Positions 4,728-23,917 of a DNA stretch of 23,917 bases are shown here, piece after piece. A model generated the notes under the pieces. It was given only the letters and a program-made list of their open reading frames with translations, searched no databases and was not told the DNA's origin. A program made the translations under genes and the position numbers. Position 1 is the first letter of the stretch, and each line of letters begins with the position of its first letter. The stretch covers positions 1-23,917 of IMG/VR virus record IMGVR_UViG_3300025617_000115; one strand, written 5' to 3'. The stretch comes from a virus.

Positions 4728-5078
4728 CTATGTGTTCGCGACAGGTGTTTTAGTCACCTGTGGTGTTACGGTAACAATTCCTTCGACAAGTCTGGTTCTG
4801 ATATCCGAGTCATCTGTCAATTCGATGTCATAAACATATCTACCCGGTTCTAAAGTTTCTGTCACATCGCGATCCATTTTAAGTGTTACTTGACCACTAG
4901 TACGAGGATTCTGAAATTCTATAGTGAAATCATATGCAGTCGTAGCAGTGTAATGTTTGCGAACCTGCCCAAAACCAGTGTGTCCCGCTAAATTTTTAAC
5001 GTTCCCATCAGTGTCTTTAACTGTGATTGTGGTAGAAAAATCTGAACCTTGATCGATGATGATATTCGCTTTTGCCAT
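4728..5078 (-). CDS. Small beta-rich virion structural protein
   Basis: This 116-residue protein begins MAKANIIIDQGSDFSTTITV and continues with a D-T-D-G-N turn, a QVRKHY segment and an LEPGRYVYDIEL strand near residues 77-88. I recognise the pattern as a small beta-sandwich protein recurrent beside fibre genes of T4-like marine phages, resembling N-terminal domains of baseplate upper proteins. It is too short to be a fibre itself, so an adaptor or connector role is plausible. A perfect TATAAATA motif starts 23-30 nt upstream of its ATG, and AGGA provides a ribosome site. This makes it the likely first gene of a late transcription unit running through the next four genes. The fold assignment is from pattern memory only. 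Confidence 0.7.
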   Translation of the reverse strand: MAKANIIIDQGSDFSTTITVKDTDGNVKNLAGHTGFGQVRKHYTATTAYDFTIEFQNPRTSGQVTLKMDRDVTETLEPGRYVYDIELTDDSDIRTRLVEGIVTVTPQVTKTPVANT

Positions 5079-5099: not shown

Positions 5100-5705
5100 C
5101 TATTTATATTTAGGCAATTCTTTCAGAAACGAATCATCTCCTAGTACATAAAACGATTGTGGTGTGCTTTTATACATGTATACACCTCGAAATTCAAAAT
5201 TGTTATCAAACCGTCTGAGAGTTTTTTCGAATGCTTTTGGATTTTGATTACGATCTGGATAAAATGTCCGAGTTAAAAATAGGTTTTCGATACCATGCTT
5301 CTGGTGATACTCAGGATGATGTTCAAAAAATCCAAGCATTTTTTGAACAGCATATCTGTTTTGACTTCTGATTTCGTCGGTAACCTCGTCAACGTCGCCT
5401 GTAGACGAAAAGAACTCACCTTGCCATGTTGTTCTTTTCCATTCTCGATAGAAACAACGTGCAACATTATATGGTTCCATCCAATCTTCTTGTTGAAGAC
5501 CAAATAGATTGAAAGGGTAATCATTTTTTCTATGAATCACACAAAATTTCGTAAAATTCTCTTGTAAGATATTTTTATTATAATCTTTTGCCCTGCGATG
5601 TGTGTTATTCTGAGCTGCATCAAGCATCATGTCGTAGTAGTCACCGTTTGTTTCATCAAACACGATAGCACTATATCCATGATCATATTGAATGGTCTCT
5701 ATCAT
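5100..5705 (-). CDS. Hypothetical protein in the radical SAM/aminotransferase operon
   Basis: This 201-residue soluble protein is rich in aromatic and charged residues. Its first 120 residues alternate strand-like and helical segments. A conserved-looking stretch near residues 52-92 (FTKFCVIHRKND, then NVARCFYREWKRTTW) is faintly reminiscent of an acyltransferase-type fold, but no acetyl-CoA-binding motif is evident and I would not name a family. Its ATG overlaps the radical SAM stop by 4 nt (ATGA) with GGAG upstream, so the two genes are translationally coupled and it may be a partner or tailoring enzyme. Its stop codon TAG is part of the TATAAATAG motif that probably drives the next structural gene. 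Confidence 0.65.
   Translation of the reverse strand: MIETIQYDHGYSAIVFDETNGDYYDMMLDAAQNNTHRRAKDYNKNILQENFTKFCVIHRKNDYPFNLFGLQQEDWMEPYNVARCFYREWKRTTWQGEFFSSTGDVDEVTDEIRSQNRYAVQKMLGFFEHHPEYHQKHGIENLFLTRTFYPDRNQNPKAFEKTLRRFDNNFEFRGVYMYKSTPQSFYVLGDDSFLKELPKYK
5101..5108 (-). promoter_or_regulatory. T4-type late promoter candidate (TATAAATA)
   Basis: The minus strand reads TATAAATAG 22 nt before the ATG of the 116-residue structural gene. The final TAG is also the stop codon of the 201-residue gene. This would restart late transcription for the structural genes leftwards of the accessory enzymes. Confidence 0.6.
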
Positions 5706-6496
5706 AAAATCTCCATATATTTAATTAGTGGAAAATTGCTAATCTTCTCACAACAATTGTGGCAGTAATCTTCATATTGAAAAAGATTAAGCCTCATCAT
5801 ATTATGTATGTTTTCTTCTGTAATGTCAAATGTTTTTGAGTCCAATGTTCTTTTACTGCAATGCCTTAAATTTTTGTTTTCAAAATCTATAACAGGCACC
5901 TGTGGAAACTTCGAACAAAGTTTTCGATCAATTACAGGTGATTGTTCAACAACATCAAAGTTCTTTGACCTTGAGTTGTAGGTTTTCCATTGTGTATTTT
6001 TGTGTGATAAATGTTCTATTTCATTTTTATGCGTGTCATAGTATTTAAAATAGTTGGGTGTCTTGATGACCACATTGTAGTTATTCAATTCATTTTCTTC
6101 GAAACACTGATAATTACCAAGTTTTGAAATCTTGTCTGAATGAAAGTCCTCGATCAAATGCTCCATGTAAATGACATTTGGGTCTTCAAGAATTTCCGGA
6201 TACCTTTTCCTTACGAACGAATTCGATAAAACTGATGGTACAAAATTGTCATATCTCTTAATCGCATCAATTACATCCTTTAAGTTCTTTACAAGACCGG
6301 GTTCACCTCCAAGTAAACTAATCCTGATTTTATAATCTTTCAGATAACCAAGAACCCTTTCTAAAAAATCCATATCTACTGTTAGATTTCTCTGCTCGAT
6401 GGTGTATGATGTGCAATACTCGCAGGTTTTGTTGCACGACATTGTTAGAAAGAAATCAATTGCGAAATGACTATTCTGGATTTCTTGCAATCGCAT
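5702..6496 (-). CDS. Radical SAM enzyme with SPASM/twitch-like C-terminal cysteines
   Basis: The 264-residue product has the canonical CX3CX2C cluster motif (C21, C25, C28 in SCNKTCEYC), which binds the 4Fe-4S cluster that cleaves S-adenosylmethionine, and a GGEP motif at residues 63-66. Five further cysteines near the C-terminus (C194, C213, C245, C248, C249; the last three in YCHNCCEK) suggest an auxiliary iron-sulfur cluster of the SPASM/twitch type. The length is close to compact enzymes such as the BtrN dehydrogenase. I chose the ATG at 6496 because GAGG sits 6 nt upstream; a TTG at 6508 would also be in frame but has no ribosome site. It overlaps the aminotransferase by 26 nt and the next gene by 4 nt. 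The substrate is unknown; amino-sugar or peptide modification are the main options. Confidence 0.88.
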   Translation of the reverse strand: MRLQEIQNSHFAIDFFLTMSCNKTCEYCTSYTIEQRNLTVDMDFLERVLGYLKDYKIRISLLGGEPGLVKNLKDVIDAIKRYDNFVPSVLSNSFVRKRYPEILEDPNVIYMEHLIEDFHSDKISKLGNYQCFEENELNNYNVVIKTPNYFKYYDTHKNEIEHLSHKNTQWKTYNSRSKNFDVVEQSPVIDRKLCSKFPQVPVIDFENKNLRHCSKRTLDSKTFDITEENIHNMMRLNLFQYEDYCHNCCEKISNFPLIKYMEIL

Positions 6497-7517
6497 AGAA
6501 TGCCTCAACTATTTTTTCATGATGTGATCCAACAGACCAATCAGGATATTCAAATATCTTCTCGACAAGCATCGTATAAATTTCATCTACTGGTTCTGCT
6601 TTGTTGAGTATCGGTAGGGTCACGATAGTATCTGAAACTAATTGTGCATTAATACAGAAATCTTTTCTGTGTTTTATTGATTTATACATCGAGTTCTCAG
6701 ACATGGGTTTATCATAGTGAACCTTAAGACCAAAAATATCTTTGATTTTATCACGGTCTGGTTTACTATCAAATCGAATCGTATGTCGAAAATAATTACT
6801 GATTAATCCGTCTGGTCTTTTTTGAGTTGGACGATTGAACTTATATTTCTCAGTTGCTTCCTTTCTCAATACCCATTGATCACAATACGAATTCATTTGT
6901 GTTAAAATATGCTCTGCATCTACATTTGACATTCGTGAGTTACGCCCAAGATACTCAAAATCCTCTCCGTGTCCATGATGACTTAATTTAGTTAATTTGT
7001 CAGCAACCTCTTCGTTGTCTGTCAATACCATGCCCCCACCAGTCAACCCACTAATCACTTTGTTGGTATTGAAACTGAACGTAGATATATCACCTATTGA
7101 TCCCGCAGGAACACCATCAAGAGTGCATCCAAATGCCTGACACGAATCTTCGACTAATAGTATACCGTGATTTTCACAGAACTGTTTTAGATCAGTTGCG
7201 TCATGCATACTGCCGAACAGATGGACAAAGATAATTGCTTTTGTTTTTGATGTGACCATCCGTCGGACGCTATCCATACATAGATGGTACGTGTCAATAT
7301 TGATATCACAAAATACAGGTGTCGCACCAACCATTGATATACAAGATGCAGAAGATATCCAAGAAAAGTTGGGGACAATAACTTCATCCCCTTCTCCTAT
7401 ACCATTAACAAGTAATGAAAGATATAATGCTTCGGTGCCGTTACTAACGGGTATTGCAAAATTACGGGTTGTAAGGTTCCGGACGTGTTGCCCAATCTTC
7501 TTTAACACTATCTTCAC
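6471..7517 (-). CDS. DegT/DnrJ/EryC1/StrS-family PLP aminotransferase
   Basis: The 348-residue product shows the family landmarks in order: SNGTEAL (25-31), GDEVIVPNFSW (43-53), VEDSCQAFG (122-130, with the PLP-contacting D124 and Q127), and SFNTNK with catalytic K153 followed by GLTGGGMVLTD. These enzymes usually transfer an amino group to a keto sugar bound to a nucleotide or to a keto-cyclitol. The N-terminus starts only about 25 residues before SNGT, shorter than usual. A TGA in frame at 7523-7521 prevents extension, so the start is GTG at 7517 or GTG at 7508 (GAGG 8 nt upstream of the latter). The 5' end overlaps the previous gene by up to 56 nt in another frame. Its 3' end overlaps the radical SAM gene, which suggests a shared pathway. 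Confidence 0.9.
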   Translation of the reverse strand: MKIVLKKIGQHVRNLTTRNFAIPVSNGTEALYLSLLVNGIGEGDEVIVPNFSWISSASCISMVGATPVFCDINIDTYHLCMDSVRRMVTSKTKAIIFVHLFGSMHDATDLKQFCENHGILLVEDSCQAFGCTLDGVPAGSIGDISTFSFNTNKVISGLTGGGMVLTDNEEVADKLTKLSHHGHGEDFEYLGRNSRMSNVDAEHILTQMNSYCDQWVLRKEATEKYKFNRPTQKRPDGLISNYFRHTIRFDSKPDRDKIKDIFGLKVHYDKPMSENSMYKSIKHRKDFCINAQLVSDTIVTLPILNKAEPVDEIYTMLVEKIFEYPDWSVGSHHEKIVEAFYAIARNPE

Positions 7518-8166
7518 CTCTCACCATTTTATAATGTTCACGTTCTTTGTAGTCCCATTTGTTAAAAAGTTCTGGTGCATTTTGCATTCCTAATGCAAAC
7601 ACTTCCTGTCTTGTCAAATCTTTGAACGGTCTGTAAAACATATCATTCTCTTCATATGATTCATCGTAGTTAAATGTTCTTCTAAAATCATCTACAATTG
7701 AGTTTGTTGTTGCATCAAAAGAATCTATTATAGATCGGACTGTATGTAAAGAATATCCTCTTTCAATTCCCAACTTAATCAAATCTATGTAAACATCCAT
7801 TCTATAACTATCGACAATAAAATTATCACCATTTTCGAACTGAAAGTCAGACAAAGTTTTAAATTCAATTCTATAACTTTCTTCTATTTCAAAATCATCA
7901 CACATTTCCAAATAATTTGCATATCTTGTTGGTTGAGATCTAGTCGGACCACCGGGACGGTCTGGATCATTTGGATCAAATTTTGAAATTCCTCGATTAT
8001 AATTTACTGTTTCTAAAAGATGCTCTGAAGCAATATATAGAACATATAAATTATCTAGAGAACCTTTTTGTCTTTTTATTTCAGACAATATAGAAACAGA
8101 TCGAGTCGGACGTGTGTGTATTAACATCGACTTGCTATTTTCTGAGATTTCTGGTAAAATGATCAT
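7462..8166 (-). CDS. Hypothetical protein, weak resemblance to ATP-pyrophosphatase/QueC-like enzymes
   Basis: With the ATG at 8166 the protein has 234 residues. That start has GGAG 6 nt upstream, whereas the in-frame ATG at 8190 has no ribosome site and lies against a putative promoter. I do not recognise the family with confidence. The C-terminal segment RPFKDLTRQEVFALGMQ (179-195) resembles the P-(F/L)-x-x-(L/F)-T-K-x-E-(I/V) pattern near the end of QueC-like N-type ATP pyrophosphatases. Residues 13-32 (SMLIHTRPTRSVSILSEI region) sit where their SGGxDS loop would be, but the loop itself is absent. If related, it is a degenerate or diverged member. It heads the four-gene minus-strand run, downstream of a CATAAATA motif. 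Confidence 0.6.
   Translation of the reverse strand: MIILPEISENSKSMLIHTRPTRSVSILSEIKRQKGSLDNLYVLYIASEHLLETVNYNRGISKFDPNDPDRPGGPTRSQPTRYANYLEMCDDFEIEESYRIEFKTLSDFQFENGDNFIVDSYRMDVYIDLIKLGIERGYSLHTVRSIIDSFDATTNSIVDDFRRTFNYDESYEENDMFYRPFKDLTRQEVFALGMQNAPELFNKWDYKEREHYKMVRGEDSVKEDWATRPEPYNP
8132..8160 (+). promoter_or_regulatory. Sigma70-like promoter candidate for the plus-strand block
   Basis: TTGCTA (8132-8137), a 17-nt spacer and TAAAAT (8155-8160) preceded by TGG (an extended -10 element) match a host-type promoter in 4/6 and 5/6 positions. Transcription would begin about 30 nt before the glycosyltransferase ATG at 8197. The promoter would lie inside the 5' end of the divergent gene. Confidence 0.45.
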
Positions 8167-8191
8167 TCTATTCTCCAAAATTGAGTACATC

Positions 8192-8199
8192 TATTTATG
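8192..8199 (-). promoter_or_regulatory. Late promoter-like motif (CATAAATA)
   Basis: The minus strand reads CATAAATAG 25 nt upstream of the ATG at 8166, the first gene of the minus-strand accessory run. It overlaps the ATG of the divergent glycosyltransferase. With it in place the upstream ATG at 8190 would fall near the transcript start, which favours the downstream ATG. Confidence 0.45.
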
Positions 8200-8865
8200 A
8201 ACATTGTTTGCGTCAAATGGGGCAAAAAATACTCTGCAGAGTACGTACATAAACTGTATAGCATGCTGTTACGCAACATGCCTGTACCATTCAATTTCTA
8301 TTGTTATACTGATGATAACACAGATCTGAATGGATTGCAAACAATTCCTATCGAATCTGACCTTGAAAGGGTTTGGCCTAAAGTAGAACTGTTCAACCTT
8401 TTCAGTAAAGGAGATACCATATACTTTGACTTGGATGTTGTTGTCCTCAATCCACTTGAACGATTGTGTTCAGTAAAGACAAGGACTGTTTCCGTATTGT
8501 ATTCTCAATGGAAGTCAGATTACTTTTATCCATATGCAGAAAAGAAATTTTCACCAACTCTTTATAATTCGTCAATTATGAAATGGAATGGAAAACAAGG
8601 ACAGAGCATCTACGAACATTTTCAAAAACAAAAAGATCGTATCCTCGTGAGATATCGTGAAGGATTAGACAGGTATCTTTTTAATGATCCTGTTGATGTT
8701 GATATACTTCCGTCAGGAATCGCATACTCTTATCGACTAGGAGCAAGGTATCGGAAAGATGAAGAAGCAGAAAAATTAAGGAAAGATTATGAGGTGTGCA
8801 TCTTGAATCAAGGCGAAAAAAATGATACACTATTAGGTACATGGATTGGAGATTACTGGAAATGA
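8197..8865 (+). CDS. Glycosyltransferase-like protein (GT8-type fold)
   Basis: The 222-residue protein has a Rossmann-type opening (MNIVCVKWGKKYSAEYV), a DxD metal/nucleotide-sugar motif within YFDLDVVVLNP (D78 and D80), and a YNSSIMKWNG segment (123-132) matching the N-S/G-G/I-hydrophobic-x-W acceptor-side strand of GT8-like enzymes. Such enzymes move a sugar from a nucleotide-sugar donor to a protein or glycan. It is the first gene of the plus-strand block and shares its N-terminal pattern with the last gene of that block, so the two look like diverged paralogues. Its ATG overlaps a CATAAATA motif of the opposite strand. The ribosome site is weak (TTGAG about 11 nt upstream). Donor and acceptor are unknown. 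Confidence 0.75.
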   Translation: MNIVCVKWGKKYSAEYVHKLYSMLLRNMPVPFNFYCYTDDNTDLNGLQTIPIESDLERVWPKVELFNLFSKGDTIYFDLDVVVLNPLERLCSVKTRTVSVLYSQWKSDYFYPYAEKKFSPTLYNSSIMKWNGKQGQSIYEHFQKQKDRILVRYREGLDRYLFNDPVDVDILPSGIAYSYRLGARYRKDEEAEKLRKDYEVCILNQGEKNDTLLGTWIGDYWK

Positions 8866-9512
8866 GTGAGTTTGATCAAGTCAAAAAATGGTGTGCTGAT
8901 CAAGAACTGTTTTATCTGAGAGCAGACATTAAAATTCCAGAAACAGTTATTGATGAGGCATTGACTATTTATGATGAGGGACTATTTGTCGAACACCGAG
9001 GTTCAGATGGCCGAGGTTGGCAATCGGTGACCCTTCATGGTGAGGGAATGAATGTCACCACATATAATCCAGAATCATATAATCATGATTGGACAGAACT
9101 GGTAAAGTATGCTCCTACCATGAAAGAGTGGTTGCAAGACACGTTTCCAAATAATGGTATGTATGGACGTTGCCGATTCATGTTACTTGAACCCGGTGGA
9201 TATATACGCAAACACACTGACACACACATGTGGAAAGAAGGTCTCCCACTAAAAAACAATGTGATGTCCGCTATAAATATAGCAATCACACAACCAGAAC
9301 AGTGTTATCTTCGGAGGTGTTCTGATATGCTAGAAGTTCCGTTTCAACCAAGAGAAGTGTATTGGTTTAATAACGGTCCTTTCCATGAAGCAGCGAACTT
9401 CTCCAAAGAACCAAGAATCCACTTTATCATACATGGTGGAACGAACAAGGCACGTAAAGAATTATTTGTAAAATCATTCCACAAGGAACACCCTGATGCT
9501 CAACTCATTTGA
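8862..9512 (+). CDS. 2-oxoglutarate/Fe(II)-dependent oxygenase, Asp/Asn hydroxylase-like
   Basis: With the ATG at 8862, coupled to the glycosyltransferase stop by a 4-nt ATGA overlap, the protein has 216 residues. RCRFMLLEPGGYIRKHTD contains the HxD pair (H118, D120). FNNGPFHEAANF gives the distal histidine (H175), and EPRIHFIIHGG gives the arginine (R185) that would bind 2-oxoglutarate. Order and spacing match the double-stranded beta-helix core of aspartyl/asparaginyl beta-hydroxylase-like enzymes, which hydroxylate protein side chains or small molecules. An ATG 21 nt upstream is in frame but lacks a reason to be preferred. Placement directly between glycosyltransferase-type genes suggests it prepares or modifies the acceptor; that is inference. 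Confidence 0.8.
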   Translation: MSEFDQVKKWCADQELFYLRADIKIPETVIDEALTIYDEGLFVEHRGSDGRGWQSVTLHGEGMNVTTYNPESYNHDWTELVKYAPTMKEWLQDTFPNNGMYGRCRFMLLEPGGYIRKHTDTHMWKEGLPLKNNVMSAINIAITQPEQCYLRRCSDMLEVPFQPREVYWFNNGPFHEAANFSKEPRIHFIIHGGTNKARKELFVKSFHKEHPDAQLI

Positions 9513-10791
9513 AGAATTTGGTAAGTTTATCTTACAAAACTCAAGTCACAACACAAAAGAAACCAAAAAGGTTCATATTATTTTGAACTATCCCAAAATC
9601 GAGTGGGATGAATATGCACAATATATGGCAACCCTTACTTGGTGGACTGGTGTCGGTTGGGGTCGCAAAGGTAATACAGAAGCAATTATTTTTGCAGAAA
9701 CTTTAGATGAAGCAGTTGCTCAATCAGACAAATACGAATATGCCATGGTGAGTTATATTGGTTCATTTTATAATAACTGGCATAGAGATGAACCGAATAC
9801 AATTCATACTTACTTCGATGAGTTTTGCGAGTCCGGTGCACCATGCAAAGGTCATATCCTTTGGCACGAAAAAAATCAGTACGCACGTATGCATCTCCAA
9901 TGTTTTTTCTTAAACTTAAATCATTGGAGAGTTATTGGGAAACCTTCATTTGGTAGGTATACAGGTGATGTGGTCTGGCCAGAAAGATCGTCTACGAATG
10001 TGCACGATGACTATACACCTTATTGGTTAAAACCCAAAGAAGAAACTGTTATTAAAACTGTGCGCAATGCAGAAATGGCAGAGTACATTTCAAAAGTTAT
10101 TGAAGCAGGTGATACAATCCACAACTTCATTCAAGAAAGAGATGTCAAGTTTTTCTGCTATCCAGAGAGAAGATCATGTGAAGCACTTGACTTTGAAGAA
10201 AATAAAAATGACAATATTGTTTACACTAAGAATAACGAAAAGTATTCTCATATGAAAGTCAAAACAAATTTGAAGTTTGACGTAATCTATGCTCCCGCAT
10301 CCGGATTCAGTGGAGAATATTTGTATCATCTTTATGGACATGAAAACACCAAGATGATTTTCTTTGATATTAATGATGATTCAATATCATGGAAAAAAAT
10401 GGTATACGATTTCCGTGATTTAGACAGAGTTGAGAATTATTGGAAAAAGAAAGAAGGTGTCATTGTTGACGATGCGGATTACAAACCTGTTGTTCGTGGT
10501 GATAATGAAAAACTTTTCCCCCAAGATAAAATTTTAGAAACAATTGAAAAAATTGGAAACCCTGAATTTATTAAATTTGATGCGGTCATCGATCCTATTG
10601 AAAATTTAAAGATTGACACAGACAAAGTTAATTTACTATACTTCTCAAATATCTTCTGTTATAATTACCTTATTCACCGTCATCCTGTGGATGTAATTCA
10701 TGCACGTTGGGGAGAATTTTTAGATCTTGACAATTGCATTATTGGTGGAAAGAACTTGTTTAGAGATGAGGTCATCAGCGGTAACTATTAA
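9496..10791 (+). CDS. Two-part protein of unknown function, possible methyltransferase-like C-terminus
   Basis: This 431-residue soluble protein appears to have two parts. Residues 25-200 form an N-terminal domain with a distinctive GHILWHEKNQYARMHLQCFFLNLNHW region (119-144; residues G119, H120, H124, H133, C136) and GKPSFGRYTG (148-157). Residues 258-431 read like a diverged Rossmann fold: strand FDVIYAPASGFSGEYL (261-276), a strand ending in an acidic residue (MIFFDIN, D291), and VNLLYFSNIF (378-387), in the order of SAM-dependent methyltransferase motifs but without a clear GxGxG loop. The ATG has AAGGA 8 nt upstream and overlaps the oxygenase by 17 nt. It is flanked by glycosyltransferase-type genes and ends in a TAATG overlap with the next one. 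The real activity is unknown. Confidence 0.7.
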   Translation: MLNSFEEFGKFILQNSSHNTKETKKVHIILNYPKIEWDEYAQYMATLTWWTGVGWGRKGNTEAIIFAETLDEAVAQSDKYEYAMVSYIGSFYNNWHRDEPNTIHTYFDEFCESGAPCKGHILWHEKNQYARMHLQCFFLNLNHWRVIGKPSFGRYTGDVVWPERSSTNVHDDYTPYWLKPKEETVIKTVRNAEMAEYISKVIEAGDTIHNFIQERDVKFFCYPERRSCEALDFEENKNDNIVYTKNNEKYSHMKVKTNLKFDVIYAPASGFSGEYLYHLYGHENTKMIFFDINDDSISWKKMVYDFRDLDRVENYWKKKEGVIVDDADYKPVVRGDNEKLFPQDKILETIEKIGNPEFIKFDAVIDPIENLKIDTDKVNLLYFSNIFCYNYLIHRHPVDVIHARWGEFLDLDNCIIGGKNLFRDEVISGNY

Positions 10792-11453
10792 TGAAAATAT
10801 TATGTGTAAGAGTCGGTGACCGATACGGTCCTGAATATGAAGAATATTTAGAGTCGAAACTTCCTGAACATGAATTTATTTGGATTCGGGAAGAGATGCC
10901 AAATGTTCAATTGCAATGGAATAAAATGGTTGGAATGAATCTTGATATTGATGAATGCATCTGTGTTATGGATATTGACATCTTGCTTTTGAATGATTAT
11001 AAAAAAATATTTGAGTACCCTGTCGAGAAAGGACAGTTTTTATCCATCCACAGTTGGTGGAAAGACACTGAGTTTTCTCGATTCACTATCAATGGTGGGT
11101 TCTACAAGTACTATCCGAAAGATTGTAAATATATCTACGATAAGTTTATGGAACATCCAGAATATTATCAGAGAAAATATATTCAAGAAGGGTACACTAC
11201 TGGTCCTGTCAATGGCGAACAGCATTTCGTTGAAGATGCAGTTAATGAAAAGTTAGAATTGATCTATCTGCCTAGTTCATGGGTGTGTCGTTTCCACGAG
11301 AAAAATCTGAAGAAATTAAATACTATGTACAAAGAAGAAACGGGAAATCCGTATATGTACTTAGGTGAGTTTCATAGTGATATTAAGTTTGCGCACTTCA
11401 CGCACATGGATAATCTCCCCCATCTCTGGGGGAGATACGAATCATTCGTATAA
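10791..11453 (+). CDS. Glycosyltransferase-like protein, paralogue of the first gene of the block
   Basis: The 220-residue protein opens MKILCVRVGDRYGPEYEEY, matching the pattern of the 222-residue glycosyltransferase at 8197. It carries a DxD motif in CVMDIDILLLND (D61 and D63), an INGGFYKYYP strand (100-109) that corresponds to the N-S-S-I segment of its paralogue, and a GEQHFVEDAV segment (142-151) like the D/E-Q helix of GT8 enzymes. A late histidine pair is in FAHFTHMD (H202, H205). Donor and acceptor are unknown. The ATG overlaps the previous stop by one base. Its last 12 nt overlap the end of the opposing 166-residue gene, inside an inverted repeat. Confidence 0.75.
   Translation: MKILCVRVGDRYGPEYEEYLESKLPEHEFIWIREEMPNVQLQWNKMVGMNLDIDECICVMDIDILLLNDYKKIFEYPVEKGQFLSIHSWWKDTEFSRFTINGGFYKYYPKDCKYIYDKFMEHPEYYQRKYIQEGYTTGPVNGEQHFVEDAVNEKLELIYLPSSWVCRFHEKNLKKLNTMYKEETGNPYMYLGEFHSDIKFAHFTHMDNLPHLWGRYESFV
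11413..11450. terminator. Possible bidirectional terminator at the convergent gene junction
   Basis: Two adjacent inverted repeats lie here. ATCTCCCCC (11413-11421) pairs with GGGGGAGAT (11428-11436) around a 6-nt loop, giving a 9-bp GC-rich stem. TACGAAT-C-ATTCGTA (11436-11450) is a second 7-bp arm pair. They cover the ends and both stop codons of the converging genes. Neither strand shows a long T run after the stems, so a classical intrinsic terminator is not proven. Confidence 0.45.
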
Positions 11454-11942
11454 AAACTTACCTGCAATGTAAAGACACTCTAGAGGTGTCTTTGCTTCTC
11501 TTAATCGTTTCTTCAATTCTTGTGTTTCTTCAGACCATTCAACATTCAAAAGTTCTGGCATATCAAAAATTCTCAACTTCAAGTTGAATAAAAACTCTTC
11601 ACCAATATTTCCTTCAGGTAGTTCAAAGAGATGATCTACCCTCAAAAGGTTATCTACCTCGACATTCGCAGGGTCATATACCAATCCCTTTTTTAATGCT
11701 TCTCCCAAAACTAATGTCTTGAAAGCTTCTGCTTCAGAAGCAGATCTTTCGTTTGTGTTATTTTTTATCTGTTTTAAATTATATTTTTCCAACAATTTCT
11801 GATAGTTTTCATTTTCAAGATCCACAGGAATAAACACATTGTAGTAAGAATCCACTCCAAAATCATGCCACGTTGCTTGAATTTCGTTTCTATCATCGTT
11901 TGTAAAATATGCATCGATGAATTCACCTTGCTCTAAAATCAT
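11442..11942 (-). CDS. Hypothetical protein at the end of the structural run
   Basis: This 166-residue acidic, mainly helical protein has no signal peptide, membrane segment or recognisable catalytic motif. Residues 26-60 look strand-rich (WHDFGVDSYYNVFIPVDLEN), and the last 30 residues form an E/L/K/R-rich helix followed by LECLYIAGKFLYE. The ATG overlaps the stop of the 318-residue structural gene by 4 nt (ATGA) with GAGGA 8 nt upstream, so it is translated with that gene. It could be a minor virion protein or an assembly factor. It is the last gene before the opposite-strand block and converges with it. Confidence 0.65.
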   Translation of the reverse strand: MILEQGEFIDAYFTNDDRNEIQATWHDFGVDSYYNVFIPVDLENENYQKLLEKYNLKQIKNNTNERSASEAEAFKTLVLGEALKKGLVYDPANVEVDNLLRVDHLFELPEGNIGEEFLFNLKLRIFDMPELLNVEWSEETQELKKRLREAKTPLECLYIAGKFLYE

Positions 11943-12895
11943 ATATCAGTCCTCACTTTTAATCTGTATGTATTTGCAGTCGTAGGTTCTCCTGAAGGAA
12001 CTTCTTGTGACCTGTAGTCGTTCTTACTAAATCTTTTACCAATGTACGGATACGTTCCAGTGTTATCTAACTGTTGATTAATAACTGTTCCTGTAACAAT
12101 TCCATCATTTTCAAATAACGCGTTAATATCCCATCCAAATCTAAGTTTGTTTCCAGAAACATTTCCAAAATAATGACGAGCAGAATCTTTTAAAAGAGAA
12201 TCGATTTGGGTGTCAGATAACAAAACAGCATGACCTTGTTCATAACAAACTGGTCGAGTCAATCCGGGAATAGTAAAACCATTTTTCTGTAGCAAATAAT
12301 AACTTGTTGTGTCAAATATATCTTGCGACTCGTCTGTTTCAATATTGTCCGCAGAATATCCATCATCTTCCTTAGACACTGCAATAGTATCCTCAAATAT
12401 TTTCCCTAAATTTGTATATCCAGTTGCTACATCCGTATTCAGAATTGTATATAATCTACCAGCGGTACTTAAGGTACTGCTTATAGGTGATATGAATGTA
12501 TCATAAACATCGTCAATGTCCATTTCTTTAAGATGGTTCCCATCATAATACAGTGGAAACTTATGAGTTAGTGCCGTTGGAGCATTAGTAGTAACGATAT
12601 TTTGACTTATGTTTTCCCAAGTAACACTCAGTTGTTGAATTGTGATGTCGTCATCATTCTTAATTTTAAGTTCCGCACCAGCAACACTTACGGCATCTGT
12701 TGTGCCGATACTAGTATAGTAACGAGTGTCCGTGATCGCGTCAAGATTTCCTCCACTTTCAACTCTGCTTAAGTAAACTGAAGGATTGCTTGTAAACAAT
12801 CCTACTGCATGACTTCGCAATGCAGAAAGCATGTCGTCAGTCATCTCTTGCAAACTGTTTGAAAAATCATAGTATACTGGTCTTACTGATGCCAT
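11939..12895 (-). CDS. Probable virion structural protein (318 aa)
   Basis: The protein begins MASVRPVYYDFSNSLQEMTD. It has an S/T/N/D-rich composition with many short strand-like segments and no membrane segments or enzyme motifs. Position and style match structural proteins that follow the fibre gene in T4-like marine phages; I do not recognise a named family. The ATG lies 9 nt after the stop of the 1102-residue fibre gene, with AGGT 8 nt upstream, so the two are probably one transcript and may act together on the particle. The C-terminal residues (about 270-318) are rich in polar turns, which could form a contact surface; this last point is speculative. Confidence 0.65.
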   Translation of the reverse strand: MASVRPVYYDFSNSLQEMTDDMLSALRSHAVGLFTSNPSVYLSRVESGGNLDAITDTRYYTSIGTTDAVSVAGAELKIKNDDDITIQQLSVTWENISQNIVTTNAPTALTHKFPLYYDGNHLKEMDIDDVYDTFISPISSTLSTAGRLYTILNTDVATGYTNLGKIFEDTIAVSKEDDGYSADNIETDESQDIFDTTSYYLLQKNGFTIPGLTRPVCYEQGHAVLLSDTQIDSLLKDSARHYFGNVSGNKLRFGWDINALFENDGIVTGTVINQQLDNTGTYPYIGKRFSKNDYRSQEVPSGEPTTANTYRLKVRTDI

Positions 12896-16213: not shown

Positions 16214-16416
16214 TTACTTATCTCTGTAATGAGTTTATGAAGCATGGATTTTATTTCATTTATTTCTTGCTTCATTTGGTTTATCTCAGATTGTTTATTT
16301 TTTTCAATCTCTCGCCTCATTCTGTATCGATCAAGGGATGTCAAATCAGTATTTAACACCGCCTTTGTTTCAACATCCCTAACAAGATCCTCATTATCTA
16401 CTATTTTACACTTCAT
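16210..16416 (-). CDS. Small coiled-coil protein
   Basis: This is a 68-residue protein. Residues 1-30 (MKCKIVDNEDLVRDVETKAV, then LNTDLTSLDR) form a polar head, and residues 31-66 form a heptad-like helix rich in E, K, I and M (NQMKQEINEIKSMLHKLITE). It is coupled on both sides: TAATG overlap with the DUF4815 gene and ATGA overlap with the fibre gene. Small coiled-coil proteins in this position are common in T4-like marine phage structural clusters; a role in linking or trimerising the flanking proteins is possible. The tight coupling on both sides supports a real gene rather than a chance frame. Confidence 0.7.
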   Translation of the reverse strand: MKCKIVDNEDLVRDVETKAVLNTDLTSLDRYRMRREIEKNKQSEINQMKQEINEIKSMLHKLITEISK

Positions 16417-19400
16417 TATTTTTGCAACGCAATTGCTCTCATGTCTTTAACTAAAGGAACAATGTTTGTTCCCGAACTTGTCAAAACTATTTTAATAGCA
16501 AATGTATTGTATGTGTGATGCACAGATCCGTCTCCAGATCTATATGCAACAACTCCACTATTAGCACTATTTAGTCGTGCATGAGAGTTAGCTGTGGTCA
16601 AGAACCCTTGTCCGTTAGTATTTGCTGAGAACCCATATTCATATTCTATAATATCAGTTCTATCAACCGAATCTGATCTAGTTTCCGCACTTGTAATTTG
16701 CGTTAACGGAGTAAAATCTTTTAAGGAAAGATCTTCTGCATCGGATGGATTATGAATTTTTGCGTAAACCTTAACATCGGTTCCTGAAGGTTTCCATGCA
16801 CTAACAAATACTTTAAGATCTTCTGCATCGTTTCCTCTAGCAAGTTCGACTGGTCTTGTAATATATCTTACAAGTGCATTTCCAACTTCTTTGTGTTCAT
16901 CAATCGAATCATTGTTAATTTTATTTTCAAGAACGATGGCATTGCATCTAGATGTATCGACAATAGGAGAAACATAAGTATCTGTTGTATTCAGAGATCC
17001 TTTAAACACTAAAGTTTTCTTAGAAGTCGCAACAGGTGATAAAGCATCTCCCGGAGTATGTCCGAATACTTTTTTCTCAGAATCTATAAAATCATTTTCC
17101 TCAGAGATGTTCACAGATCTATAAGAACTGTTGATTACACCAGAAGTTGAAGTTGTTCTGACCGACCAAGTTGCACTAGTGTTAGCATATGTCAACTGAG
17201 GAATCTTAGGAACAACGGTGTTCATAATAACATTATCGACTGATTCAATAGTCGCAGTCGCAAGAGACGATACTCCTCTAATGTTATCACCTGCTGAAAA
17301 CCCTCCTGTTGAATTTTCAATATGAATTTTTCGATTCGTAGTATCTATAAATTTAACAAAACCTCTCTCAGTACTGCCTGTTTTCTGAACCTTTTCTCCG
17401 AGTTTAAATGAACCAGTAATTGTGGAGTAAGTAAAGAAATCGATATCATCATTTTCAATATAAACAGTTCCTGTACTTCTAGTAAAGTTAGCACGGTAAA
17501 GTTTAAACTTAAGATCTTCACTTTGAATTGGAGACCAAGTTTTGTCGTTTGCTGAAGTAAACAATATACCAGTAGCAGGCTGTTGGTGAATCAATTCGTT
17601 GGTGTCAACGTCTTGTTGTCCAAGTTTTCCGACCCACAAAGCATACTCATCCGTGTTACCACCCGGTAGAATTGTGATTGCATAATCTTTTTGATTCTGC
17701 AAAAATACTGGAGACGCAAATTCAAAAGTTGTTGCATTTGTTGCCACCGATGTACTTACCACAACAGCACTTGCTTGTAATGTTTTAGAACCATATGGCA
17801 CAATAATTTCTGTTGGGAAACCATTTTCAACTTCACGAATTTGTACTGTAACAGGATATGTGCTAGATTTCTTGCCAAAGAAAAGATCCAGTTTTGTGAT
17901 AAACACACCCTCAGAATCACCGACATTAACTGAGAATGTTTGTGACAGAGGATCATGACGAGTCGTTGTGGTTGTTACAGTTGTTACAGTTCTGTTCCTA
18001 GAAACTCTTTGGTCTGAAAGTTGCGGAACCTTCATACTAATACTAGCACCTCTTTGAGAGATGTCTAGTTGAATAGCAGTGTAATCTCCATGTGCAGAAG
18101 TAGTGATCAGATCAGATTGCGTGATAGTATTGGCAACATCTTTTAGAGTAAACCGCTTTGTTCCAATTCTAAATTTTAAGTTATCATCATTTGGAATTCT
18201 AAAGTTTGCATACAAAGTACCAGTGCTATCTGTGATGAGATCCGATCCTTCAGAAGCAGTATTAGCATGACTTGCGTCAGCAGGTGTAACATAACCAGAA
18301 ACAAGTTCATCCTCAAAATAAGGATATACTCTTGTGTTTGGTTTCATTCTATACGCAGTAATCTCAACATTTCTTGATCTAATATAATCACGAGTCGCAA
18401 CATTTGTGACCATGTTACCAAGATCAAAAGTTTCTGTTGAAGGACTCATCGTTGTTTGAATGCCACGTTGAATTTGGTCTGACTGAGTTGTAGTCGTGGT
18501 GATCCGTGTCATCCGGTTTGGCATTGTACTGGTAGATGAAGATGACGAACTAGTTGTTTGCCATGCACCCCAATCAATTCCTGTGACACCAGTACGTCTT
18601 GCAATTTCTTCAATAGCATTGTACATACCATCAAAATCAACTTGAACATCTGGTAGTTCAGTGATGTCTGGAGTATTATCCATTGAAGGGTTTAGTTCGA
18701 TTTCACCCTCCCAATTAAATGTCAATTCTTGAACAGGATTACGTAGCTTCGATGCATAATTTTGATCGATAAAACTAGAATGAGTGTAAGTCAAACAAAT
18801 TAAATCACCTTTCTTAACTACATTGGTTGACGTTAGTGTCACGTCATTTGATAATCCAACATCAACTCGATTAAATGAAGGACGCAACTCTGTTCTGTTT
18901 CTGTCAATAGCAGCTCGATACCCAACTGCTTTAGTGTCAGAGATATTGTGACCATCGAAATTATCTACCAAGAAACCATTTTTGAATCTATCCAATCCAG
19001 ATTCACCAAAGATTTGTTTATTTCGGGCAGATGTTTCTAATGCATTCAGAGATGAATAATATTCTAAATTTTTAACTCTTTGATCAACAGCACGTAGATC
19101 TTTCATAGTATATCTACGATTATTGATTATGTTCAGTCCTACTCTATAATCGAACCTATCAGAACTTTTCGCTGCTTGTGGTGACAGAGAAGGAAATACT
19201 GGTATATTAAGAGTAGCAATCGACATTGCATGCGCACCACCAAATGGTTCTTGGGGAACAGGAGCAGGAATTCCCTTAACAACTTCAATGTTTCCTTCTT
19301 TCGTCAAAGTAATTTTATCTACCCGAGGAAGATAAAACTGAATATCTGTCTGGAAATTCTCATCCGGAGTAGGACAATAGGAACCAGACGAATCAATAAT

Positions 19401-22073
19401 ATATGTTGTCGCAGACGTAGGGTTAGTGATTGATGGAGTTTGGACTGCGATAGCATTAGCAGATGGAGTAATGTTGTATGATTTAGTTTGTCTAAAATCA
19501 ACAGAATCTCTTAAGTCAAATCTTTTTCCTGAGAAAGGAGAAACAAATACTGGAATTTCCTCAGTTCTAATGCTATCATCTGGAGCAGATGCGCTATCAT
19601 TAACAGGATAAGAATCTACAGAGAAGAAACCAATACCAGCCGAGGTGTCTCTTCCAAAATAATCAAATTTAACCAACAAACCTGCAGTTGTCAAGTCTAA
19701 TGAACTATCCGCCCTTAACTCTATACTAGCAGTGTCATAGTGACCATCTTTTTGACCATCATTTAAAATAAAATGTTCAGTAACATCCGTATCTGAATCG
19801 GTTACTGTAGCTGCACCACCTTTATAAATCTTAATTAATTTAAAAGCATCTGATACTCCAAGTGACCATGGACCAACAGAACTATTAGGGTGAGTAGCAC
19901 AATTAATATGGACATACTTATTGCGTTCAGCAGTTTTGGACGCAGCTACTGCACTTGATCTATTAATATCGAAATAGACAGATGCGGCAAAATCACTTGA
20001 TAAGTTTGCTTGTTGTAGATTTATATTGTGCTGAGTGGATGTGGATTGGAATTGTCCGTTCGACACTGTATCAAAAACGTGTCCTTTCGGAAATCTTGTT
20101 GCATGAGCTAAGGTTGCTGAACTCGTTTCCATTGTGGGACTAAGACTATTCACAGTCAACACAGTGTCACTAGTGATGGTATCAATGATTCCAATATGAG
20201 TGTTAACTCCTTGCACAATTTTTATAACGTCACCGGATTTATAAGATTGCAAGAAAGTTGTCGATCCACCAGTAACCGTAGTTCCACTTACGTCTGCAAT
20301 GTGACCAGTATGAGGTTCCGTATCAACTTGATCTCTTGCAACAATTATAATGTTTCTTTCGTCAGTATTTGTGAGAGGTGTTCCGGTATCATTGAGTGTC
20401 TCTGTGCCACCTGCATGTGCTGTATTTGGTGTGACCGTTGCAGTTCCCGATGCATCAAAACTAACAGTTTTTTCTGTTCTTACAACAAATTGAGTATCAA
20501 CAACATTATCTTCATCTTTTAATGTTTTTGTTCCTGTTTGAGTAAACGGAAATACCATGGTTTTTAATGGAGTGTCTTGTAGAACAGCAGATCCATTTGA
20601 ATCTAATACAATGTCCGCTATTGCAGTGGCACCTGTGGAGTTTTGTTGATAGATAGATTTGACATCAGAGAACGATCTTCCTGACTCTAATTGAATGTCA
20701 AATAGATATAATCTAAATTGTCCAGTTGAAGTTCCGGGATTTCCTGAATGCCACTGGAACCCGCGAACTACAGCAGTACCAATTTCAGTTGCACCCAATG
20801 TTGACGTGTCACTAAAGTTTAATCCTGAAATTGCATTTAATGCGGTGTCATATAATCCGACCGTTCTCAAACCTTGGAAGTCCCAAGTCCCAACTTGTTC
20901 ATCAACAATAACATAATTTCCAACAGTTTGCCCGATTACTCGTGCGTCTTTAGTTTCAAAATCTGTTGCTTTATCAAAAGAACGAACTACGGTTTCGTCA
21001 ATTGAAATTCGATTGCCTCCAACGTAAGCAATCGCAGGTTCGATTTCCGCAACAAGTTTATTGATGTCTCCTGCTTCATAACGACCAAAATTATCGTTTC
21101 TTTTTAAATGTTCTCTGACTCTGATATTAAATGGTTCTGTTGCAAAGTTACCATTTGTTTCAAAAATTCTATTTGCTACGAGATCATTAACAGCACCTAG
21201 TTCTTGATTTGTTTGTTGCGTGACCAATCCTTCTTCTACATTACCAATAGAGAAGAATGTCGTAGTGTTAGCAACTGCTGACTCGATAGCACGAGTTGCT
21301 AATACGGGACTAAGTTTTAATCTGTCGGCACCCGGTGCTGAGAAATTAGTTGCCCCTGTTGCATTGTCTAATAAAGATGAATCTTCGTTAGAGTTAACTG
21401 TGGTCTCACGAGTTTCAAAACCAACTTTGTTTGAAGGAGTCGTGTTATATTTTTCTAAGATAATTCCTTGAGCATCTACATTAATAAAATGCCCTTTATG
21501 GTAAATAACCCCGTCAGAAACAGTTGCTCTTAAACCGAGTCCTGTAGAAGCAGTAGTTATGGTATTTGCGGCAACCACAAAAGAACTGTCAGATTGAGAT
21601 CTGGCAATAATTGTTTCATTGTTATCAAAAGATTTTTTAGTATTATTTGTACCGGAATTGAGGTACTGAACAAACACGGTAAGATAATTTGGTGCCGCAG
21701 CTTCAGAACCTTCTGCTACGTCAATTAATTTAGCAACGACTCCAGAAGATTCTCCTGTAATGCTAACGTTAGCAATTGTTCCGTCATTGTTTTTAAAATC
21801 CGTGACAAGCAACACTCTGTTATTAGCATCTTTGTCTCTTAATTTTACATAGTTAACTGTATCTGTATGCAGACCTACACCGGAAACTACTCGACCATCG
21901 TATACAACTTTATTTGCAAATTTTTCAATTTGATTTTGAAGAATACTTTGAAGTTGAGTTAATTCTCTTGCCTGTACCCCAAATCCCGGTCTAAAAAGAA
22001 CACGATGGTATTTCTTGTTTTCCACAAAATCATCGAAATACGGACTTTGATTTAAATTAGTTTCGAGTGCCAT
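16416..22073 (-). CDS. Very large virion structural protein, DUF4815-type
   Basis: This is an 1885-residue protein. The N-terminus (SPYFDDFVENKKYHRVLFRP, then GFGVQARELTQLQSILQNQ) is the signature I associate with DUF4815, a large tail-associated protein of T4-like phages. Residues 1374-1530 carry a second distinctive block: DPLSQTFSV, GVFITKLDLFFGKK, VQIREVENGFPTE, then TGILFTSAND and LKFKLYRANF. Between them near residues 1170-1200 is a Ser/Thr-rich low-complexity linker. The last 350 residues are beta-rich and could be the distal part. The ATG follows the gp8 gene by 10 nt with AAGGT upstream. Position next to gp8 suggests a baseplate-periphery or fibre-anchor role; that is inference from context. 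Confidence 0.85.
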   Translation of the reverse strand: MALETNLNQSPYFDDFVENKKYHRVLFRPGFGVQARELTQLQSILQNQIEKFANKVVYDGRVVSGVGLHTDTVNYVKLRDKDANNRVLLVTDFKNNDGTIANVSITGESSGVVAKLIDVAEGSEAAAPNYLTVFVQYLNSGTNNTKKSFDNNETIIARSQSDSSFVVAANTITTASTGLGLRATVSDGVIYHKGHFINVDAQGIILEKYNTTPSNKVGFETRETTVNSNEDSSLLDNATGATNFSAPGADRLKLSPVLATRAIESAVANTTTFFSIGNVEEGLVTQQTNQELGAVNDLVANRIFETNGNFATEPFNIRVREHLKRNDNFGRYEAGDINKLVAEIEPAIAYVGGNRISIDETVVRSFDKATDFETKDARVIGQTVGNYVIVDEQVGTWDFQGLRTVGLYDTALNAISGLNFSDTSTLGATEIGTAVVRGFQWHSGNPGTSTGQFRLYLFDIQLESGRSFSDVKSIYQQNSTGATAIADIVLDSNGSAVLQDTPLKTMVFPFTQTGTKTLKDEDNVVDTQFVVRTEKTVSFDASGTATVTPNTAHAGGTETLNDTGTPLTNTDERNIIIVARDQVDTEPHTGHIADVSGTTVTGGSTTFLQSYKSGDVIKIVQGVNTHIGIIDTITSDTVLTVNSLSPTMETSSATLAHATRFPKGHVFDTVSNGQFQSTSTQHNINLQQANLSSDFAASVYFDINRSSAVAASKTAERNKYVHINCATHPNSSVGPWSLGVSDAFKLIKIYKGGAATVTDSDTDVTEHFILNDGQKDGHYDTASIELRADSSLDLTTAGLLVKFDYFGRDTSAGIGFFSVDSYPVNDSASAPDDSIRTEEIPVFVSPFSGKRFDLRDSVDFRQTKSYNITPSANAIAVQTPSITNPTSATTYIIDSSGSYCPTPDENFQTDIQFYLPRVDKITLTKEGNIEVVKGIPAPVPQEPFGGAHAMSIATLNIPVFPSLSPQAAKSSDRFDYRVGLNIINNRRYTMKDLRAVDQRVKNLEYYSSLNALETSARNKQIFGESGLDRFKNGFLVDNFDGHNISDTKAVGYRAAIDRNRTELRPSFNRVDVGLSNDVTLTSTNVVKKGDLICLTYTHSSFIDQNYASKLRNPVQELTFNWEGEIELNPSMDNTPDITELPDVQVDFDGMYNAIEEIARRTGVTGIDWGAWQTTSSSSSSTSTMPNRMTRITTTTTQSDQIQRGIQTTMSPSTETFDLGNMVTNVATRDYIRSRNVEITAYRMKPNTRVYPYFEDELVSGYVTPADASHANTASEGSDLITDSTGTLYANFRIPNDDNLKFRIGTKRFTLKDVANTITQSDLITTSAHGDYTAIQLDISQRGASISMKVPQLSDQRVSRNRTVTTVTTTTTRHDPLSQTFSVNVGDSEGVFITKLDLFFGKKSSTYPVTVQIREVENGFPTEIIVPYGSKTLQASAVVVSTSVATNATTFEFASPVFLQNQKDYAITILPGGNTDEYALWVGKLGQQDVDTNELIHQQPATGILFTSANDKTWSPIQSEDLKFKLYRANFTRSTGTVYIENDDIDFFTYSTITGSFKLGEKVQKTGSTERGFVKFIDTTNRKIHIENSTGGFSAGDNIRGVSSLATATIESVDNVIMNTVVPKIPQLTYANTSATWSVRTTSTSGVINSSYRSVNISEENDFIDSEKKVFGHTPGDALSPVATSKKTLVFKGSLNTTDTYVSPIVDTSRCNAIVLENKINNDSIDEHKEVGNALVRYITRPVELARGNDAEDLKVFVSAWKPSGTDVKVYAKIHNPSDAEDLSLKDFTPLTQITSAETRSDSVDRTDIIEYEYGFSANTNGQGFLTTANSHARLNSANSGVVAYRSGDGSVHHTYNTFAIKIVLTSSGTNIVPLVKDMRAIALQK

Positions 22074-23859: not shown

Positions 23860-23917
23860 TAACTAGACCCATTCCTGTAGTAAACGTTTGCAGATGCAAT
23901 ACTTGAATTTGCCCAAG
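23859..23917 (-). CDS. C-terminal end of an upstream structural gene, partial
   Basis: Reading into the window from the right edge, one minus-strand frame gives WANSSIASANVYYRNGSS followed by a TAA that overlaps the gp8 start by one base (TAATG), the same coupling seen at three other junctions here. The other two frames also stay open for much of this short stretch, so the choice rests on the junction. In T4-like phages a baseplate wedge gene often precedes gene 8, but 18 residues are too few to name it. Confidence 0.5.
   Translation of the reverse strand, partial: WANSSIASANVYYRNGSS

Follow-up and report, generated by a model that had tools for sequence, protein, structure and literature searches.

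Two usually separate enzyme cassettes joined in the host recognition slot of a T4-like virus

In pelagimyophages, a variable region of the structural block has been described as the "host recognition cluster" (HRC; Zaragoza-Solas et al. 2020). It starts downstream of VrlC, contains fibre genes and is bounded on its far side by the neck gene gp14; according to the sections of that paper considered here, it harbours glycosyltransferases (GTs) as well as radical SAM cassettes (PMC7029224). Our study deals with an island of eight genes at positions 5100-11453 of the virus record IMGVR_UViG_3300025617_000115, a stretch of 23,917 bases which was analysed over its whole length (the window), originates from a T4-like phage and is probably a genome fragment. 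The island is a variable region in the structural block, located downstream of a VrlC homologue and among fibre genes. Its slot thus is the published HRC, of which the isolate Pelagibacter phage Mosig EXVC030M (MT647606) is an example, and location and general content (GTs, radical SAM cassettes) were already known. A sequence-only reading of the window had regarded the gene combination as an undescribed system. This no longer applies to the slot, the GTs and the radical SAM cassettes, whereas the protein termed i7 below indeed belongs to no named family. In the searched sections of the HRC paper the two cassettes and the pair of a 2-oxoglutarate (2OG) hydroxylase and i7 are not resolved; the window joins both cassettes.

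Three further systems are similar in part. The collagen lysyl hydroxylases/glycosyltransferases (human LH3, mimivirus L230; PMC9546862, PMC9614988) couple a 2OG hydroxylase to a GT-A-type domain, as may be the case for i6 and i7 of the island. In contrast to LH3 and L230, i6 belongs to another hydroxylase family (PF05118) and i7 is predicted to have an extra methyltransferase-like domain; no sequence homology to either was found, i7 being without a sequence match in the PDB. For mycobacteriophages, soluble phage GTs were proposed to decorate capsid or tail proteins (Freeman et al. 2023, as treated in the part of PMC12619734 considered here). That case was shown by experiment, whereas for the island we infer it, and the island adds a hydroxylase and amino-sugar enzymes. 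Marine T4-like cyanophages such as P-SSM2 and S-SSM7 likewise carry clusters of sugar enzymes, and carbamoyltransferase and 2OG oxygenase genes have been noted in cyanophages (PMC3037559). These clusters are large and were discussed as lipopolysaccharide (LPS) genes, whereas the island is small, consists of two cassettes and lies in the fibre block.

Two cassettes and their linkage

Two cassettes that are each common, A (GT-2OG-i7-GT) and B (DegT-radical SAM), are joined in the eight-gene combination, which is rarely seen. Open reading frame (ORF) calls placed exactly eight genes at 5100-11453, and together with hidden Markov model (HMM) matches in the flanks they confirmed two divergent four-gene runs between minus-strand structural genes, as read previously. 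The genes are tightly packed, overlapping or abutting in an operon-like manner, and the runs diverge from a 6-base gap (8190/8197):

5100-5705, minus strand: i1, 201 amino acids, unknown (ORF; no Pfam match, weak PHROG match only)
5702-6508, minus strand: i2, radical SAM enzyme, cassette B (PF04055, 4.9e-7)
6471-7517, minus strand: i3, DegT/DnrJ/EryC1 sugar aminotransferase, cassette B (PF01041, 1.7e-68)
7462-8190, minus strand: i4, 242 amino acids, unknown (ORF; no Pfam family)
8197-8865, plus strand: i5 (GTa), glycosyltransferase-like, cassette A (phrog_1962 glycosyltransferase, 2.3e-13), conserved in relatives
8841-9512, plus strand: i6, Fe(II)/2OG hydroxylase, cassette A (PF05118, 2.3e-9)
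9496-10791, plus strand: i7, 431 amino acids, unnamed family with an HDDYTPYW motif, partner of i6, cassette A
10791-11453, plus strand: i8 (GTb), GT-like, cassette A, with a VMDIDxLL (DxD-type) motif

Outward searches were made from the radical SAM family and from i6, the best 80 loci being kept per search; cassettes beyond flanks of 8-10 kb would escape them. DegT was found directly upstream on the same strand in all 66 radical SAM loci with enough upstream sequence. The 80 radical-SAM-anchored loci frequently contained a carbamoyltransferase (70) and a weakly SGNH-like gene (69), none contained i7, and a single one contained a 2OG gene of the i6 family. Conversely, i7 was located just downstream of the 2OG gene in 56 out of 57 i6-anchored loci with full flanks, and GTb was present in 69 out of 80, but DegT plus radical SAM in only 1 out of 80. 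Among the loci searched, both complete cassettes occurred together only in the window and one relative, the L002 contig (again as L195) of the i6-anchored set. Loci fetched with the conserved border gene r10, an unbiased anchor picked without regard to either pair, agreed with these counts (Fisher's test, 9e-7 for DegT/radical SAM and 8e-4 for 2OG/i7, P values which ignore shared ancestry). The expectation that the genes co-occur far beyond chance and in the same slot of related phages was therefore supported by the linkage counts and the r10-anchored loci. However, the island is not the single unit that was proposed: because cassettes A and B are nearly always apart, an indivisible eight-gene unit is ruled out.

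Cassette A of the window shares 67-79% identity with that of L002, but r10 only 36%. Compared with L052, the structural genes are closer (VrlC 63%, gp8 70%) and cassette A is less similar (51-65%); a search of the entire 102-kb L052 record for DegT gave no match. This pattern of identities would fit a movement of cassettes between phage backbones.

Most enzyme identities assigned from the sequence (2OG oxygenase, aminotransferase, radical SAM enzyme, GTs) were substantiated by PF05118, PF01041, PF04055 and phrog_1962, and that of i8 by its motif and a profile match to i5. The three genes described as unknowns (i1, i4, i7) matched no family, for i1 and i4 in HMM searches. In cassette B, i3 scores above the PF01041 cutoff with 231.9 bits, has retained the catalytic lysine motif FSFNxNK, and its pyridoxal phosphate lysine K153 is invariant in the alignment. 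The best PDB match of the i3 profile is the glutamine--scyllo-inositol transaminase 7b0d (2e-82), and 2-deoxy-scyllo-inosose aminotransferases are matched as well. A C-terminal tail on the DegT proteins of the window and L002 corresponds to a separate gene of 101-122 amino acids in L083, L084 and L110. An alignment of i2 with 11 relatives showed the CX3CX2C motif plus further conserved C-terminal cysteines, which appear to be twitch/SPASM-like; its true start is more likely ATG 6496 than TTG 6508. In butirosin-type systems, a DegT aminotransferase is paired with BtrN, a radical SAM dehydrogenase carrying an auxiliary cluster. Cassette B resembles this arrangement in combining an aminotransferase with a radical SAM enzyme that probably carries an auxiliary cluster, but the i2 profile had no BtrN match in the PDB. 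It matched viperin-like and other radical SAM chains, and assignments of i2 as BtrN or as viperin were rejected, the similarity being confined to the radical SAM core.

L002 carries a homologue of i4 with about 30% identity, and i1 was not found there. Homology of i4 to c28, the gene upstream of DegT in other loci, was rejected. Neither a relation of i1 to c22 or c36 proteins nor a GNAT-like relation was significantly supported.

The hydroxylase i6 and its partner i7

Scoring 37.7 bits (cutoff 22.6), i6 is a member of the PF05118 Asp/Arg hydroxylases. The triad H125-D127-H182 (HxD...H) and an arginine are invariant among 15 relatives, and the folds nearest to its AlphaFold2 (AF2) model (predicted local distance difference test, pLDDT, 90) are L-proline cis-4-hydroxylase followed by AspH. 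In contrast, i7 has no Pfam or NCBIfam family, and its best PHROG match (E 0.045) is not meaningful. Searches for i6 and for i7 in cultured phages gave no matches. The AF2 model of i7 is confident (pLDDT 88) and matches uncharacterised phage proteins over the full length, with TM-scores of 0.70-0.78. LH3 and COLGALT1 are among its top, though weak, fold matches to enzymes, besides the PBCV-1 capsid GT, likewise of GT-A type, and methyltransferases. From the order of secondary-structure elements and the alignment, the N half of i7 is predicted to be GT-A-like and the C half methyltransferase-like.

The two genes are coupled beyond gene order. A 2OG gene was located within 2 kb of every i7 locus with enough flank, three exceptions ending at a contig edge. 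The 2OG gene could lie upstream or downstream of i7, or the two could diverge or converge, giving four arrangements. In L048 they occur as a fusion, with hhalign probabilities of 99.5% to i6 and 97.5% to the C half of i7. A 207-kb contig from a metagenome-assembled genome of Halobacteriovoraceae encodes 2OG and i7 as overlapping neighbours (L111:6994-9176), subject to the caveat of binning; nearby genes read as radical SAM, GT2-like and carbamoyltransferase-like. This hydroxylase/GT-like pair is undescribed; its probable role is to decorate the host surface or the fibres of the phage itself.

In L041 (12141-13334) and L044 (12072-13220), an unrelated protein with an O-methyltransferase C half (PF13578, 2e-16) replaces 2OG-i7 between two GTs. 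Homology of i7 to this fusion protein, c36, was rejected. Freshwater-type phage loci (L029:1-9860, L019:5000-15000) have tandem radical SAM/SPASM arrays of about seven c7 copies beside i7-2OG, the L029 locus carrying a carbamoyltransferase as well.

For i8, the classification as GT-like is based on two features only, the DxD-type motif and its profile, which matches that of i5 moderately well (hhalign probability 63%, E 6.8e-5); the GTb profile had no matches in the PDB. Neither i5 nor i8 could be assigned to the GT8 family, as no Pfam match was obtained, PF01501 included, and GTs of other islands score slightly below the GT8 cutoff.

The slot, its flanks and late promoters

Virion genes on the minus strand border the island on both sides. 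One flank encodes the gp8 wedge (phrog_438) and an 1885-amino-acid phrog_358 protein with a homologue annotated as VrlC in phage Mosig, the other a phrog_3304 fibre-assembly protein and phrog_8578/9417 proteins:

4728-5078, minus strand: s5, fibre-assembly-like, marks the other island border (phrog_1084, 5.8e-26; phrog_3304, 7.3e-24)
11442-11942, minus strand: r9, 166 amino acids, unknown, constantly present at the border of the island and converging with i8 (ORF)
11939-12895, minus strand: r10, 318 amino acids, conserved border gene
16416-22073: VrlC homologue

The order in the window is VrlC homologue, fibre, r10, r9, island, s5, fibre; the record stops at base 23,917, and at the opposite end it breaks off inside fibre genes. 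In the r10-anchored loci the order gp8-VrlC-fibre-r10-r9-[variable enzymes]-s5-fibre recurred, and 31 out of 32 non-redundant loci contained GTs. The slot content varied strongly between loci. Other islands add carbamoyltransferase, O-methyltransferase, GT8-like and radical SAM/SPASM enzymes, which are typical for sugar tailoring. In phage Mosig (L028:5503-21538), the slot holds 23 genes, mostly enzymes and also divergent. Among these are two genes annotated as Asp_Arg_Hydrox, nitroreductases, a peroxiredoxin and a desaturase. Phage Mosig also carries a relative of cassette B. The island boundary is not visible in the base composition of the window (GC 0.33-0.40 inside, 0.33-0.42 outside), and no tRNA was found in the window.

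The T4 late motif ATAAATA was counted within 70 bases upstream of leading genes and compared with permutations of the motif. It preceded 22 out of 52 leading island genes (permutations: median 1) and 12 out of 23 structural leading genes. In the window alone such motifs are no more frequent than chance, and support for the following two comes from position and from enrichment in relatives:

8192-8199, minus strand: CATAAATA, putative late promoter of the T4 type, located at -33 relative to i4 (start 8166)
5101-5108, minus strand: TATAAATA, late-promoter-like, overlapping the i1 stop, at -30 of s5

The more likely start of i4 is ATG 8166, where a GGAG ribosome site is present in addition to CATAAATA. 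The position of TATAAATA allows independent transcription of the fibre genes beyond the island. Directly upstream of i5 the late motif was not found. Divergent island operons, the island of the window included, are predicted to be preceded by T4-type late promoters.

Possible targets of the enzymes

To our estimate there is about an even chance that the island encodes a late-expressed system for building and attaching a sugar which acts on virion fibres. In this view, the hypervariable host-recognition slot holds, in the present T4-like (pelagimyophage-like) virus, a set of genes composed of two cassettes that are usually separate. From the enzyme families we infer that DegT and radical SAM of cassette B may convert a nucleotide-sugar or cyclitol from the host to an amino derivative, and that cassette A may hydroxylate an acceptor to which a sugar is then added and capped. 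In this scheme the hydroxyl would be made by i6, the product of i6 would also be acted on by i7, and chain extension would be due to the two GTs. Late promoters would lead to synthesis of the enzymes during virion assembly, so that a fibre or baseplate protein would be the most likely acceptor, and the surface used for adsorption would be altered as a result. A virion-protein target is favoured by the late timing, the location between fibre genes, the soluble enzymes and a hydroxylase of the amino-acid/protein type; virion fibres are the more likely target than host LPS. We regard as rather unlikely the specific version in which the PF05118 hydroxylase makes an attachment hydroxyl on a fibre protein and the GT-A/methyltransferase-like i7 glycosylates or caps it.

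Several points weigh against decoration of fibres. The GT and methyltransferase fold matches of i7 span only parts of the protein, with low TM-scores (about 0.2 for the LH3 type). The N-terminal stretch of most DegT orthologues is absent from i3, as it is from the L002 protein (L002:6905-7963), but is kept in L076, L084, L085, L089, L104 and L110, and a sugar-nucleotide dehydratase or epimerase was not found in the window. The short N-terminus and the absent sugar-nucleotide steps make it less likely that cassette B can work unaided by genes of the host or further phage genes. Late timing also allows for modification of the host surface. Of the earlier suggestion that the island builds and attaches a modification to the virion or remodels host surface glycans, the first part agrees with a gene content fitting a decorated sugar and with the late expression signals, whereas sequence alone does not decide between virion and host surface.

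It is possible but doubtful that the enzymes remodel the LPS O-chain, the surface glycan of the host, in the course of infection and thereby prevent other phages from superinfecting the cell. Host-glycan remodelling was proposed for the pelagimyophage HRC glycosyltransferases in the sections of PMC7029224 considered here; GT8-like families are present, the name of the slot refers to host recognition, and soluble GTs could feed host-encoded LPS assembly. However, late promoters and the similarity of i6 to amino-acid and protein hydroxylases are at odds with this explanation, and no flippase- or polymerase-like genes are evident. No membrane spans were predicted in the eight island proteins, and at least two spans in only 3 out of 532 distinct island proteins of relatives by a simple hydropathy count. 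The membrane flippase, polymerase or initiating transferase of an LPS/O-antigen cluster was not found in the island, although the host could supply these.

We consider it improbable that the island is an assortment of auxiliary metabolic or small-molecule genes with free-metabolite products, the shared slot being a recombination hotspot only. The very variable slot content would agree with this, as would the activity of PF05118 and DegT enzymes on free amino acids and cyclitols as well, but the near-perfect pairwise linkage within each cassette over hundreds of kilobases of diverse loci, the gene fusion in L048 and the nearly constant presence of GTs contradict it. 2OG enzymes can oxidise bases, and hypermodification of phage DNA, with a 2OG enzyme oxidising a base and GTs adding sugars, was also taken into account. 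Phage GTs are able to modify DNA according to the part of PMC12619734 considered here. Nevertheless, this explanation is very improbable, since i6 is nearest to proline and Asp hydroxylases of PF05118 and not to TET/JBP, the genes lie within the fibre block under putative late promoters, and the window, though a fragment, has no base-modification gene.

Host recognition by these abundant aquatic phages is believed to be determined in the fibre-gene slot. Two strictly linked cassettes replace an assorted list of cargo by two small gene sets, and a hydroxylase with a near-constant unnamed partner is present across many virus contigs. If the specific proposal for i6 and i7 is true, the pair would represent hydroxylation-dependent protein glycosylation in bacteriophages, in parallel to collagen modification. 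If the acceptor is a fibre, these phages would change their own receptor-binding surface chemically, beyond sequence alone.

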